From Spongiactinospora rosea (GTDB lineage: Bacteria > Actinomycetota > Actinomycetes > Streptosporangiales > Streptosporangiaceae), in contig NZ_QMEY01000024.1 in assembly GCF_003315795.1 (NCBI RefSeq), forward strand, positions 62,001 through 126,000: 64,000 bases of DNA, read 5' to 3'. The notes beneath the pieces are model-generated. The model searched no databases. It worked only from the letters and a program-made list of their open reading frames with translations, and was not told the DNA's origin. Shown here piece by piece: positions 58,804 through 63,542 of the stretch (position 1 is the stretch's first letter; each line of letters starts with the position of its first letter). The translations under genes and the position numbers were made by a program.

Positions 58804-60165
58804 TCAACTGAGTAGAAGCCTGCTGGCGAGCTCCTGTACGCAGGCGGATCGGTTCCATGGCACTAGCACTACCAGGAGTTCCCGCAGTCGGCGTAGGTTC
58901 CGTTGTGACGAGGTTGCCCGAGACAGTTCGTCTGCTTGCGCCGCGATGCGGCATGCCTCGTCGATTTCTCCGGCCTGGGCCAGAGCGTTCGCCAGATCGA
59001 TCAGTGTGCCTCCTCGTTCCCGCACATACGTAGGGGGTAGTTGACGAAGGCTGTCGTTCAGCACCTCGATGGCCGCATTCGCGTGCCCCAACCGAACGAG
59101 ACATCTTCCTTTCAGGCGAGCCGCGTGAACAGGGCTGTTGTAGAAGGCCAGCCAGGGCGGCGCAGTCGATTCGGTCACCTTGTCGAACGCGACCTCGGCC
59201 GCGTGCAGAGACGAGAGTCCGGCACGCTGGTCACCTGCCAGAGCGAGGGCTTCACCCCTCGCCTCCGCGATCCACGAGCGGACCGCCGACGGCACGGCAT
59301 GTGTGGCCATCTCACTTGCGGCGCTCAGAAGCTTCAGTGCGTCATGACCGCGGCAGGCATGCAACGAGATGTAGCTCATCACGCCGAGCACATAAGCATG
59401 CATGCCGTGATCCTTGGCCTCTTCGGCGACCGTGAGCGCCAGTCGGCAGTGACGCTTGGCGGTTGAGTACTCCTGCCCATCGATCGCAAGCCATGCTGCC
59501 AGTTGGGCGACATCGGCAGTGGCACAGAGCAGTTCCCTATTGGTAGCGGAAGTTCGACCTTGGTCCCTCAAGTCCAGCATGCGGCGTAGATGAGCGTTGA
59601 CTTCGCTGTGTACGCTTCGCGCGCCGGATAGGTAGTCCATCTGGCGAAAGGTCTGTGTCATCGCGGAGAGACCTTCGAGAAGTCCGGGGGAAAGGCGCGG
59701 TCGCTTAAGAATGTGTCCCCCTCGCGCTACTGCCATTGCCGTATCCGGTGACGCGATCGAGCCAGGTGATTGCGGAGCTCCGCTGGATCCAAGGCGCTGA
59801 TACGCCTGATCAAGATGCCGGAAGTCGTAGTGGTCCGACAGCAGGGCACTCACGCTGCACTCGTACAGCTCGGCGAGCCTCCCCAGCGTGTCCATACTGG
59901 GGAGTCGGCCAGTGGCCTGGGGCCACGCCTCCCAATATGAAATGATCTTGTTGGTCTTCGGGTCATCCGGCCATCGCTGATTCCAGGCCCTCGCAGCTTC
60001 GCTTTGACTCCATCCTCGCGCTATACGGAAAGCGACCCGCATGTTCACGCGGAACTTCTGGTGAATTTGCTCAGCTATTTCCACCCATGTCGATCCCTGG
60101 GCGCGCAGCGTCGCCGCATGCCGCATCTGGGTCTGCCGAACTCCCTGACTGCCGGCCACGTTCAC
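58804..60165 (-). CDS. XRE-family regulator with tetratricopeptide-like domain (second)
   Basis: A 453-residue protein. HTH-like region about residues 20-110 (WVEIAEQIHQKF, ARGWSQSEAARAWNQRW, MDTLGRLAELYECSVSALLS), followed by helical repeats through the C-terminus (SLHAAEVAFDKVTE, LIDLANALAQAGEIDEACRI). It resembles the other XRE-TPR regulator in length and layout, but not closely in sequence. It stands divergent from the small-peptide operon, and the spacer between them is rich in inverted repeats, so it may control both directions. Confidence 0.82.
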   Translation of the reverse strand: MNVAGSQGVRQTQMRHAATLRAQGSTWVEIAEQIHQKFRVNMRVAFRIARGWSQSEAARAWNQRWPDDPKTNKIISYWEAWPQATGRLPSMDTLGRLAELYECSVSALLSDHYDFRHLDQAYQRLGSSGAPQSPGSIASPDTAMAVARGGHILKRPRLSPGLLEGLSAMTQTFRQMDYLSGARSVHSEVNAHLRRMLDLRDQGRTSATNRELLCATADVAQLAAWLAIDGQEYSTAKRHCRLALTVAEEAKDHGMHAYVLGVMSYISLHACRGHDALKLLSAASEMATHAVPSAVRSWIAEARGEALALAGDQRAGLSSLHAAEVAFDKVTESTAPPWLAFYNSPVHAARLKGRCLVRLGHANAAIEVLNDSLRQLPPTYVRERGGTLIDLANALAQAGEIDEACRIAAQADELSRATSSQRNLRRLRELLVVLVPWNRSACVQELASRLLLS

Positions 60166-60240
60166 CGTCCCGAGTAACCGCGTTCTTACAATCGAACGCT
60201 ACACCGGCAATCACACCAACACTGCAGATCAACGAGCTTT

Positions 60241-60288
60241 TCCCCGTCTGACGGGGATGCCCGGCATCATGTTCCCCGTTCTGGCGGG
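60241..60288. promoter_or_regulatory. Pair of operator-like palindromes
   Basis: TCCCCGTC-T-GACGGGGA (60241-60257) is a perfect 8-bp-arm palindrome. A related imperfect copy, CCCCGTTCTGGCGGG (60274-60288), has its centre 32 bases further on, about three helical turns. They lie between the divergent XRE-TPR gene and the peptide operon, a good place for binding of the XRE regulator. Confidence 0.65.
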
Positions 60289-60311
60289 TTGTTCGCGGTG
60301 ACCAGGCCGCA

Positions 60312-60355
60312 GATTCTTTGGTGCCAAGAATCCTACACACTCGGGACGACCGAGT
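60312..60355. promoter_or_regulatory. Two further inverted repeats in the divergent spacer
   Basis: GATTCTT...AAGAATC (60312-60332, with inner GG/CC) and ACTCGG-GACGA-CCGAGT (60339-60355) follow the two palindromes. Their function is unknown; they may be extra operator sites or a leader structure of the peptide operon. Confidence 0.5.
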
Positions 60356-60402
60356 AACAGAAATGTCCCGTTCACACCATAACGGACAATTGGAGGTCGA
60401 TC

Positions 60403-60480
60403 ATGCCTTACGCCACAGCGGGCCAAAGAGCGCCAGAGACCACCGAGCTGGATTACGCCACTATCCCGGCGGCCGGCTGA
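60403..60480 (+). CDS. 25-residue peptide ORF, first gene of a small operon
   Basis: ATG 60403 follows a strong TGGAGG by six bases. The product has 25 residues, starting MPYATAGQRAPE and ending DYATIPAAG, with no hydrophobic signal. Its TGA overlaps the next ATG (TGATG), so the downstream gene must be translated after it. It could be a leader peptide, a signalling peptide or a modified-peptide precursor. The short length and good RBS are visible; the role is not. Confidence 0.55.
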   Translation: MPYATAGQRAPETTELDYATIPAAG

Positions 60481-60827
60481 TGAACGCCTTCATGCTCGTC
60501 TACCGGCCGACCCACCCAAAACCTTCGGCACCTCCAGTTCTACAGGAAACCGCCCGAAGGCTTCAGGACGCGCTCGCCGCGCACGGCATCCACACCGACC
60601 TCACCGACGATCAGAGGAGAGTCTTGGTCTCGGTCTGCCACGGTCTCGTCGCCATGGTTCAAGAGGACGGGATCTGGTGGCACAGCCCGCGTGAGCTCAG
60701 ACCCGGTATCCCGCTTTACGTGCATCGCGGCACTGTGGCCGGGGCCGCCGAAGCCTTGGTCGACGACCACGCGCTGCTGACCCCAGTGCAGATCGCGGAG
60801 GAGCCCCATGACGCAACTCCCGTCTGA
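60480..60827 (+). CDS. Hypothetical protein, 115 residues
   Basis: Start ATG 60480 overlaps the peptide stop. The product (MNAFMLVYRPTHPKPSAPPV start, then LQDALAAHGIHTDLTDDQRR and MVQEDGIWWHSPRELRPGIP) is mixed alpha/beta with no recognisable family. A frame open upstream is not used because the 25-residue ORF provides a clear start. It overlaps the next gene by 20 bases. Confidence 0.6.
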   Translation: MNAFMLVYRPTHPKPSAPPVLQETARRLQDALAAHGIHTDLTDDQRRVLVSVCHGLVAMVQEDGIWWHSPRELRPGIPLYVHRGTVAGAAEALVDDHALLTPVQIAEEPHDATPV

Positions 60828-61107
60828 CTGCTCCCACCTCGGCTGCACCGCACGCCCCCTCCTCGTGGTCTGGGAGGTCGAAGCCCGCGACCACAGCGCT
60901 GGCGGTGTGAGCGATAACGAACAGACGGCCGAGACCGCCATGTTCGAGACCCTCGACGCCCTCCCGTCAGGTCGTGGCCGCGTACGGTACGCGCGCCTAT
61001 CCGTCCTGGGCATCGGCTACCAGTACGGGGAGACGCTGCTGACCGCTTACCGCAAGAACGGCGCGACCGTCGCGGTGGCCGGTGACGCCTGGGAGAGCAT
61101 TCCATGA
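60808..61107 (+). CDS. Hypothetical protein, 99 residues
   Basis: Product with CSHLGCTARPLLVVWEVEA near the N-terminus and VRYARLSVLGIGYQYGETLL in the middle. Two Cys early may bind metal or be structural. No family recognised. ATG 60808 lies inside the upstream gene and is preceded by GGAGGAG, a strong RBS. Confidence 0.6.
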   Translation: MTQLPSDCSHLGCTARPLLVVWEVEARDHSAGGVSDNEQTAETAMFETLDALPSGRGRVRYARLSVLGIGYQYGETLLTAYRKNGATVAVAGDAWESIP

Positions 61108-61486
61108 TCGGGCACGGCGGCGTGGTGCGGATATGGGCGCCGCCGTGCCGTACGGCGGGCCGTCGGGGGCCCGCCCGGCGCGGGCAGGTACGAGGCCTTC
61201 TCCCTGCCCGCGCCACCCACCTACCCAAGACGCGCGGCGGCCCCACACCTTCCCAGGCCGGACCGCGCCGCACAGGGAGTCTGGTAGCTCCCGTGCCCGC
61301 GTGGGCGGGCGGCCCACCACCCCCAGGTTCGCCGCCCGCCCGCGCCCTCCCCAAGAGGGGTGCCATTGGACTGCCTGAGCGTCTTCCGGACACGTCTGGT
61401 GCGGAACATGACGATGGCCGCCTCCGCCCAAGCCGACGAGCCGCCCGAAGGAGCTGTCGCCCCGAACGGTGAGAGGAGGAGCGCTG
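61108..61486. other. Gap within the small operon, nothing supported
   Basis: About 380 bases. A 122-codon frame that overlaps the previous stop by ATGA reads as Arg/Pro/Gly-rich and has no coding character beyond composition. GC-rich inverted tracts around 61155-61200 could terminate transcription. I do not call a gene here. Confidence 0.4.
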
Positions 61487-62374
61487 ATGCGCATGCGATG
61501 GGAGAACCTGCCGCAGCCGCTCCGCGCCGACATGGAGACGTACCTTGGCGCGGTGGTCAAGGCGGAGTCCAGGGCCATCGGCCCCGCCCGGTGCGTTACG
61601 GCCCGGCTGCTGCACGAGTCCGGCGCAGGCACATGGCTCAAGGCGTGCCCTGCCGACCATCCGGCCGCCTGGCTGTACGAGCGGGAGCGCCAGGCCGGAC
61701 GGATCCTGCCCATCGTCGTGCCGGCCCCGCGCATGCCGTGGTCCAGCGCTGATCATGGATGGATCGCGCTCGCCCACACCTACCTGGACGGATCACCGGC
61801 GGATCTATCACCCGGTTCCCCGGACGTGCCAGAAGTACTGGCGACCGTCGCGCGGTTGGGCGACCTGCTCACGCCATGTCCTCCGGGAGTGCCGCCATTG
61901 TCCGGTTACATCACCCGCATGCTCGCCAAGGCGTACGCCATGCTGGACGACGACAACGCGCTCCCGAAAGGCGACCGTGCGATGTATCGAGCCGCGCTCG
62001 ACGGGCTTGATGTGGCCGGACTGGAGGGCGACACGATGCTGCACTATGAGATGCACACGGGGGCCTTCCGAATGGTGGGCCGGAGCGTCTTCGTGCTCGA
62101 CTGGGGATTCGCCTGCCAGGGCGCTGCATGGTTCGACGCCGTGATGTTCACGCCGTGGCTGATCTCCGCCGGTCACACCCCGCAGCAGGCGGAGAATTCA
62201 CTGATGGACATGAGAGAGTGGCGATCCGCGCCAGGCGATCTGGTGACAGGGGTCGCAGCACTATGGACTCTGTTCCGCCTCTACAAGGCTGTGTACGGAC
62301 CCGAGTCCGCCCGCGCTGGTTATCAAAGTGAAGCCAGGGCCGGGTACACCTGGCTGAAGTACCGGCTCGCGTGA
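61487..62374 (+). CDS. Aminoglycoside-phosphotransferase-like protein with degenerate catalytic loop
   Basis: A 295-residue protein. The C-terminal half carries the kinase-like sequence MLHYEMHTGAFRM followed by VFVLDWGFACQGAAWFDAV; the usual H-x-D-x-x-x-x-N reads H-Y-E-M-H-T-G-A, so catalytic Asp is Glu and metal-binding Asn is Ala, while the DWG (DFG-like) Asp is kept. The N-lobe has CVTARLLHESGAGTWLKACP. ATG 61487 follows GGAGG. Related actinomycete proteins are called phosphotransferases; true activity is doubtful here. It is the last gene of the peptide operon. Confidence 0.7.
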   Translation: MRMRWENLPQPLRADMETYLGAVVKAESRAIGPARCVTARLLHESGAGTWLKACPADHPAAWLYERERQAGRILPIVVPAPRMPWSSADHGWIALAHTYLDGSPADLSPGSPDVPEVLATVARLGDLLTPCPPGVPPLSGYITRMLAKAYAMLDDDNALPKGDRAMYRAALDGLDVAGLEGDTMLHYEMHTGAFRMVGRSVFVLDWGFACQGAAWFDAVMFTPWLISAGHTPQQAENSLMDMREWRSAPGDLVTGVAALWTLFRLYKAVYGPESARAGYQSEARAGYTWLKYRLA

Positions 62375-62435: not shown

Positions 62436-63542
62436 TCATGATCTGGCCAAAGGGATCAACTGAGCCTCGGCTCTGGCGACCGAGGCCATGAGATCGACCA
62501 GAAGACCGTGCGGTATCGCGCCGTTTCCAAGGCCGGCCGCCTGAACCATGGCCTGCATCGCTTGCTGCTGTCGCGATATCATCGCCGAGCGAAGAGAGGC
62601 GTGCCCAAGTACTTCTCGGCTGGCATAGGCGTCCGACATCGCTCCGGTCATCACGGCCCTCTGCAAGCGGAGGGCAGGCTCCGGGTCGTAGCCCGCGGTC
62701 AGGTCGAGAGCGGTCATGCCGACCCGTGTGCGGAAGACCGCCGTTGAGGGGTCGGCATGCTCAAAGAGTTCGAGGGTGCCCAGGATCATCGCGGTGGTGT
62801 CCTCATTGGTACCGATGCCCGCCGCCTGTCGGCAGTAGACGCGTAGCAGCCCGGCCACCGCCTTCTCCCAGGGTTCAGCGGGCAAAGTCTCGCCCACCAT
62901 GGCAGTGGCCTTGTTAATGTCGCCGCGTTCTACAAGGGCCACAATGGTGACCTGGCGACCGTCGAGCAGGCGGGTGCCGACGCCGCGGTTCTTGGCGGCA
63001 TGCTCGGCGGCCTCCTGCCAGCGTCCGGCCAGGGCGAGCGCACGAGCGCCGTCGGCGAGAAGTGCCGCCCACAGCAGCTTGCTCAACAGTTCGTGATCGT
63101 CCGGGCTTGCGGTCACCACTCGCAGATCGACCCGCCGACCGGCGATCTCGGTATCGGTTCGGTTCAGGGCGGCGATGAGGAGCCCGTGGAGGACCTGGTA
63201 GGCGCCATCGCCATCACCTTCGCGAATCAGTTGACGAGCGATGTTCAGTACAGGTTGCAGAGCCAGCTTCCCTGCCCACGCCGGGATGGGACGGGTTTGA
63301 GTGAGCGCGTCGTACTGTCGCCAGCACAGCTCGCGGGCGAGGTCCGGAAGAGCGCAGTCTGAAGCGATCAAGGCCGCCTTGTTGCACACTTCGCAGGCCC
63401 TGATCACTCGCTCGAGGTCGTCGAGCCCGGACGATTCCTCGACGATCTTCCGGAGTTCGGCGACCCGGGCTGCAAGGGTGAGGCCCGGGGGCCGGGAGCG
63501 GGAGACCAGCGGGAACCGGCGGGCTATCATCTGCCGGTCCAT
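62436..63542 (-). CDS. Helical-repeat (TPR-like) protein without HTH
   Basis: A 368-residue all-helical protein (LARELCWRQYDALTQ, LADGARALALAGRWQEAAEH, FRTRVGMTALDLTAGYDPEP). Helical repeats resemble the sensor part of XRE-TPR regulators, but no HTH is present at the N-terminus. It ends the minus-strand unit that begins with the methyltransferase at the right edge, one base after it. Its role may be protein-protein interaction in that pathway; the family is unclear. Confidence 0.65.
   Translation of the reverse strand: MDRQMIARRFPLVSRSRPPGLTLAARVAELRKIVEESSGLDDLERVIRACEVCNKAALIASDCALPDLARELCWRQYDALTQTRPIPAWAGKLALQPVLNIARQLIREGDGDGAYQVLHGLLIAALNRTDTEIAGRRVDLRVVTASPDDHELLSKLLWAALLADGARALALAGRWQEAAEHAAKNRGVGTRLLDGRQVTIVALVERGDINKATAMVGETLPAEPWEKAVAGLLRVYCRQAAGIGTNEDTTAMILGTLELFEHADPSTAVFRTRVGMTALDLTAGYDPEPALRLQRAVMTGAMSDAYASREVLGHASLRSAMISRQQQAMQAMVQAAGLGNGAIPHGLLVDLMASVARAEAQLIPLARS

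Follow-up and report, generated by a model that had tools for sequence, protein, structure and literature searches.

What is the role of an ORF of only 25 codons that opens an operon and faces, across a short spacer, a regulator of the XRE-TPR type? This question is raised by a locus in the 64,000-nt stretch of the Spongiactinospora rosea genome analysed here (the window; contig NZ_QMEY01000024.1, positions 62,001 to 126,000). The initial annotation had described an operon of a peptide ORF, two small genes and a degenerate kinase gene under the control of inverted repeats, and had proposed that the 25-residue product could be a signal or a precursor modified by the downstream proteins. The operon and its control region were confirmed by our analysis, while the proposed role of the peptide has to be revised.

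Organization of the locus

The 25-codon ORF, the genes A and B, the kinase-like gene, the divergent regulator gene and the spacer are all present where they had been annotated. The ORF (60403-60480, plus strand) starts with ATG, and its Shine-Dalgarno sequence GGAGG (60392-60396, plus strand) is located 6 nt before this ATG. Its stop codon overlaps the start codon of gene A (60480-60827, plus strand) in a TGATG junction. Gene A encodes a small protein of 115 aa with the predicted fold alpha-beta5-alpha and overlaps by 20 bp with gene B (60808-61107, plus strand), which encodes 99 aa. Directly 3’ of B lies a GC-rich inverted-repeat segment (GTGCCGTACGGCGGGCC...; 61104-61230, plus strand), which is strongly conserved and found at the same position after B in several sister loci. 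Its pattern was detected in 13 of 26 loci, including two (L012 and L092) in which the match is located elsewhere in the locus.

The kinase-like gene follows at 61487-62374 (plus strand). Its product scores as an APH enzyme (PF01636, 28.5 bits, cut-off 23.2), but the catalytic loop, which in APH enzymes has the motif HxDxxxxN, is altered to HYEMHTGAF, in agreement with the designation as degenerate. The paralogue L090/L190 keeps HYDLHAGN.

The divergent gene (58804-60165, minus strand) encodes a TPR-like regulator of 453 aa and is separated from the 25-codon ORF by 237 bp. It matches the NCBIfam model NF053720 for NsdA-family regulators with 223 bits (cut-off 75), but is far below the cut-off of the NsdA equivalog (69 versus 830), and its HTH and TPR matches in Pfam are below cut-off. 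Judged by these scores, it is a member of the NsdA family and not NsdA itself.

The locus belongs to a family of multi-copy cassettes

The locus is not a lone operon. It is one copy of a cassette present in multiple copies in Streptosporangiaceae, which appears to comprise a divergent regulator of the XRE-TPR type, an operator-rich spacer, a variable first cistron, the genes A and B, and sometimes the kinase-like gene. The host genome (G000, 9.8 Mb) contains 12 copies of A according to a one-sequence search and 13 according to a profile search, 24 copies of B, and seven kinase relatives, counting that of the window. At E 0.001, relatives of A were found in 106 of 297 Streptosporangiaceae genomes, and the A protein of a same-genus relative, matched to Spongiactinospora gelatinilytica 7K107, is 97% identical to that of the window. 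Most A or B copies adjoin a regulator-like gene, usually in divergent orientation. In a scan covering 20 of the 25 upstream neighbours, 13 matched an HTH, GntR or DUF5753 model (E <=0.01) and seven had no match. The kinase can be regarded as a recurring companion of the cassette, since five of its seven copies are located within 6 kb of an A or B copy. One kinase copy (G000:C1:516589-517485) is broken by a TGA codon, a further sign of decay of cassettes. At another locus (L097:1464-2836), two B copies and a deleted methyltransferase gene are found together with a divergent GntR-like regulator gene.

The structures of A and B were predicted confidently (mean pLDDT 84 each), and Foldseek returned nothing for either of them at E 0.001 or better. 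With VIA, the best match of A was the DNA-binding domain of T4 MotA (Z 8.2, rmsd 3.0, 85 residues aligned), which is borderline, and the best match of B (Z 5.5, rmsd 2.9, 72 aligned) was uninformative. Neither protein matches a Pfam family above cut-off, and neither contains DUF397. The cassette resembles the XRE-DUF397 pairs and the bldB/whiJ/abaA paralogue clusters of Streptomyces, which, as outlined in PMC10364602 and PMC10294661, also form many paralogous loci per genome and place an HTH regulator beside small proteins without an assigned biochemical function. In comparison to the systems outlined there, the regulator of the window belongs to the NsdA family and is divergently oriented, and A and B lack DUF397. 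By likeness to the XRE-DUF397 pairs and the bldB/whiJ paralogues, it is tempting to speculate that A and B might be partners of the regulators.

PADLOC gave no match for the regulator, A, B or the kinase; the neighbouring gene at 62436-63542 has a single sub-threshold Csm6 match (E 0.017). No homologue of A was found in the plasmid collection, and none of the 12 sister loci searched has an Rfam match at gathering score. In the window, a mir-34 match in the regulator gene (E 0.005, below gathering) was taken as chance.

A methyltransferase gene precedes A in some sister loci

Three Spongiactinospora genomes provided 22 loci in which the stretch before A was read. This position is found in three states: it carries an intact gene of the methyltransferase family PF04672 (Methyltransf_19, here MT19), MT19 fragments, or short ORFs which are unrelated or untraceable, the window being among the last. 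Intact MT19 genes directly precede A in L018 and L020 (Pfam PF04672, E 3e-69 and 4e-55) and, according to reading frame, motif and length, also in L101 and L102. Fragments of MT19 are encoded by the upstream ORFs of L017 (105 aa, PF04672 E 1.5e-8), L010 (53 aa, E 0.012) and L093 (50 aa, a score reached in 0 of 200 shuffles), and by a 67-aa remnant in L097, in which the N-terminus of MT19 is joined to its C-terminus (PF04672 E 1.6e-11). In L095, the end of MT19 persists in a shifted frame (0 of 200 shuffles). The MT19 set used for the comparisons with shuffles contained 13 proteins; seven of the 22 loci gave none because of the motif filter, and two duplicates were removed. The junction with A is TGATG in 11 of the 22 A copies and ATGA in four. 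The slot before A probably held, ancestrally, an MT19 gene whose stop codon overlapped or abutted the start of A. This gene would have been lost repeatedly, either through deletions within it or when the A-B part was exchanged.

The locus L102 of a third species (G001) is particularly instructive. Its regulator is orthologous to that of the window (52% identity over residues 1-453; the next best among the loci compared, with the near-identical orthologue set aside, has 27%), and across the spacer it faces an intact MT19 gene of 291 codons, which is followed by A. Since MT19 faces the orthologous regulator in this locus, the 25 codons of the window occupy the MT19 position. A simple deletion is complicated by the A proteins: that of the window is only 39% identical to that of L102 and up to 62% identical to those of other cassettes, which points to a possible exchange of the A-B part. 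Further pairs of loci show opposite conservation on the two sides of the start of A. The A genes of L012 and L093 differ at 24 of 340 sites and have unrelated leaders, while L011 and L094 have three differences in 120 positions before A and 59 in 337 within it. At the sequence level, this suggests that A-B cassettes have been exchanged between regulatory contexts. L011 and L094 retain a 19-aa ORF in the region that is better conserved than their A genes, and this pattern could reflect selection on the ORF or on the leader.

These observations bear on the proposal that the peptide is a signal. As in RRNPP systems, the window has a short gene adjacent to one for a TPR-type HTH regulator, and the peptide is encoded across the spacer shared with the regulator gene; the peptide could therefore be sensed by the regulator. 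However, the peptide has no visible export signal, and peptide and receptor are not conserved together, since the orthologous regulator of L102 faces a full MT19 gene in place of a peptide. In addition, the peptides of the sister loci are unrelated or are MT19 debris. An RRNPP-like signal is thus very improbable. More generally, the other copies of the cassette keep A, while the ORF upstream of it is unrelated, frameshifted or a remnant of MT19, which argues against both a signal and a modified precursor. At the level of the family, the peptide frame is not conserved while the downstream genes are kept. This does not apply to the closest relative, the near-identical orthologue L021, which retains the peptide with one synonymous change; its conservation is uninformative because the whole locus is nearly identical there.

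The 25-codon ORF is probably a leader for translational coupling

The sequences in the slot are replaced or degraded, while an ORF leading into A is found more often than expected. In 12 of 17 loci, an ORF that has a Shine-Dalgarno sequence and at least 12 codons ends at the start of A, compared to 1.53 expected when the stop is fixed and the upstream 300 nt are shuffled. The loci with intact MT19 (L018, L020, L101 and L102), the locus with gene B upstream (L100) and the near-identical L021 were left out of this count. Three of the 12 ORFs (L016, L093 and L099) use TTG, a weak start codon. The five loci without a qualifying ORF are L010, L013, L015, L017 and L096; among them, the ORF of L017 exceeds the scanned stretch, and that of L010 did not qualify due to its weak Shine-Dalgarno sequence. 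The excess indicates that a coupled ORF before A is kept while its own sequence is not.

A frame arising by chance, with A translated independently, would have to be considered for the window taken alone, because a qualifying ORF arises in 5.8% of the shuffles at this locus. The count in the sister loci (12 of 17 against 1.53) speaks against it, and so does the codon usage of the ORF, whose score of 0.22 bits per codon is close to that of gene A (0.23) and is reached by only 0.1% of 1058 out-of-frame pieces of 25 codons. Moreover, the ORF has a strong Shine-Dalgarno sequence and A has none. We therefore consider a chance frame improbable. It should be noted that coding-like codon usage would equally fit a peptide with a function of its own.

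The window thus has the architecture known from translational coupling: a short ORF led by GGAGG, the stop codon of which overlaps the start of the following cistron. No Shine-Dalgarno sequence is present within 3-12 nt of the start of A, and gene B carries its own GGAGG. We propose, with moderate confidence, that the 25-codon ORF is a translational-coupling leader for A in what was probably an MT19 slot of a multi-copy regulatory cassette. The coupling is suggested by the architecture of the junction, with which the lack of a Shine-Dalgarno sequence at A is consistent. Ribosomes would load at the GGAGG of the leader, terminate at its TGA, reinitiate at the ATG of A that overlaps it and continue to B via the second overlap. 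After the loss of MT19, selection would retain an ORF that supplies A with ribosomes, and no particular peptide. A Shine-Dalgarno-led ORF running into A could be kept because A, lacking a good ribosome-binding site, would depend on the coupling.

The peptide itself carries no trace of MT19. It has no match in profile scans with Pfam (up to E 10) or NCBIfam, and its score against the MT19 proteins is reached by 193 of 200 shuffles. Alignments made by eye to the N- or C-termini of MT19 were discarded, since shuffled peptides aligned equally well. Because the peptide lacks similarity to MT19, its ancestry is argued from position and family only, and the 25 codons may derive from an MT19 gene.

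Leader genes by which translation of a downstream gene is increased through reinitiation have been described (Korolev et al. 2016, PMC4833913). As far as outlined in this work, they are short ORFs that terminate at the start of the structural gene or close to it, they do not need to yield a stable product, and they are described for Actinobacteria. The distances reported there, from which overlapping genes were excluded, peak at 10-11 bp, whereas stop and start overlap as TGATG in the window; a further difference to the leader genes as outlined is that the slot of the window held an MT19 gene in relatives. The cassettes analysed here show that short "peptide genes" can arise when a gene is lost and its remnant stays coupled, apparently kept for ribosome loading and not for its product, and this calls for caution in the prediction of small ORFs and of peptide signals.

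Inverted repeats in the spacer and a candidate operator

The notion of a control region rich in inverted repeats was corroborated. Counting arms of at least 6 bp and loops of at most 12, the spacer contains four inverted repeats compared to 0.60 expected, a number reached in 0 of 500 shuffles. They are located at 60180-60199 (6-bp arms, loop 8), 60241-60257 (8-bp arms, loop 1), 60312-60332 (7-bp arms, loop 7) and 60339-60355 (6-bp arms, loop 5). The second of them has a related, imperfect counterpart at 60272-60288 (TTCCCCGT...GGCGGG; direct repeat D6), 32 bp away; the shared sequence TTCCCCGT starts at 60240 and 60272. Inverted repeats of 10-mers at any distance are ordinary, as 103 of 500 shuffles have one.

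Comparison with the spacer of L102 revealed a conserved 87-bp segment at 60225-60311 (local score 37; maximum of the shuffles 29, 0 of 500). This footprint beside the orthologous regulator of the third species includes both related repeats, and on the basis of its conservation it is the best candidate for an operator. The regulator probably binds there and controls the promoter via the paired repeats. In the spacer, the promoter scan detected 0 sigma-70-like sites, although actinomycete promoters may escape such a scan, and two terminator-like sites were found compared to 0.2 expected.

A two-hairpin leader in related cassettes

In many sister cassettes, two hairpins are located just before the first start codon, with the Shine-Dalgarno sequence in the loop of the second (for example L011:3718-3802, L014:3550-3634 and L102:2014-2095). 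The second hairpin has the form CGCAC-N-GGAG-GTGCG and occurs in the compensatory versions CGGAC/GTCCG and CGCAG/CTGCG. In 31 copies, picked for spread from many matches and aligned without structure (alignment A8), 91% of the cells pair, although this set leans towards structure because it was found with a model built from 11 copies of this kind. Among these copies, 39 cells are changed on both sides (11.8 after shuffling), and the covariation score is 0.293 compared to at most 0.097 for slid structures; double-sided changes are present in eight of the 13 pairs counted. This covariation fits RNA hairpins and DNA sites alike, since inverted repeats in DNA covary too.

The 11-copy model matches 32 of 120 Streptosporangiaceae genomes and 23 of 68 genera (E 1e-5). 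The leader precedes MT19 genes, whether intact or reduced to remnants, and several kinds of small genes; among 22 leader places read, two (L164 and L165) are not followed by a long gene in this orientation. It is also present before the MT19 gene of L102 (47.1 bits). No Rfam family was found at the two-hairpin leader even at lax thresholds, which yielded two mir-3926 matches far below gathering in the leader of L172. A description of such a leader was not encountered in the titles and abstracts found by our literature searches. In the window, the leader is not recognised by either of the family leader models (R1 and R2).

Together with the genes A and B, these data define a multi-copy cassette of regulator and small-protein genes with a candidate structured leader. 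We tentatively consider it possible that this is an undescribed cis-regulatory element, which may act as a family-wide translational switch (or as a DNA palindrome bound by the regulator). The first cistron behind it would be free to decay into coupling ORFs like the 25-codon one of the window, as long as the switch and the coupling persist, and the window copy would have lost a recognisable switch.

The hairpins raise the question of whether the short ORF of the window could itself be a regulatory uORF of the attenuator type, in which stalling or loading of ribosomes switches translation of A and B upon a signal, perhaps via competing hairpins. A hairpin (GTCCCGTT/AACGGAC) directly 5’ of the Shine-Dalgarno sequence of the window leader and the covarying hairpin with the Shine-Dalgarno sequence in the loop in related cassettes are in line with this possibility. 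Yet folding of the window leader is unremarkable (z -1.36), the family leader model finds nothing in it, and the peptide shows no visible run of regulatory codons. An attenuator is therefore unlikely, and we retain the coupling leader as the preferred explanation of the ORF.

A RiPP-type neighbourhood

On the minus strand, from 63544 to past the end of the window (L009:8045-12970), lies a gene for an FxLD-type methyltransferase fused to a thiopeptide-type domain. Behind it follow lanthionine-synthetase-like and thiopeptide-type genes, and this amounts to a lanthipeptide-like cluster next door. In the host genome, six of 15 PIMT-type methyltransferase genes (the PF01135 matches with E below 1e-10, out of 22) are located within 4 kb of one of 26 A/B places, compared to 0.32 expected under random placement, which does not control for clustering in islands. 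Due to the FxLD-type neighbour and the PIMT-type genes near A/B copies, the regulator may govern the RiPP cluster.

The same two observations are in favour of a RiPP precursor role for the 25-residue peptide, in which A, B, the kinase or the FxLD enzymes encoded nearby would modify it. On the other hand, the peptide is coupled to A, lacks Cys and bears no likeness to the 44-45-aa putative precursors found beside such methyltransferases, and elsewhere MT19 is in the same position. Nothing was found that ties the peptide to the adjoining cluster, and we regard a precursor function as very improbable.

The putative precursors were observed in two sister loci (L012, oriented, 393-1651; L014:880-2145), where peptides of 44-45 aa with the sequence MSAT(R/Y)G(E/D)HEGKP... 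are encoded directly before PIMT-type methyltransferases. The latter are TIGR04188-like, below the cut-off of this model. These pairs of peptide and methyltransferase genes look like two-gene RiPP loci of an imiditide-like kind.
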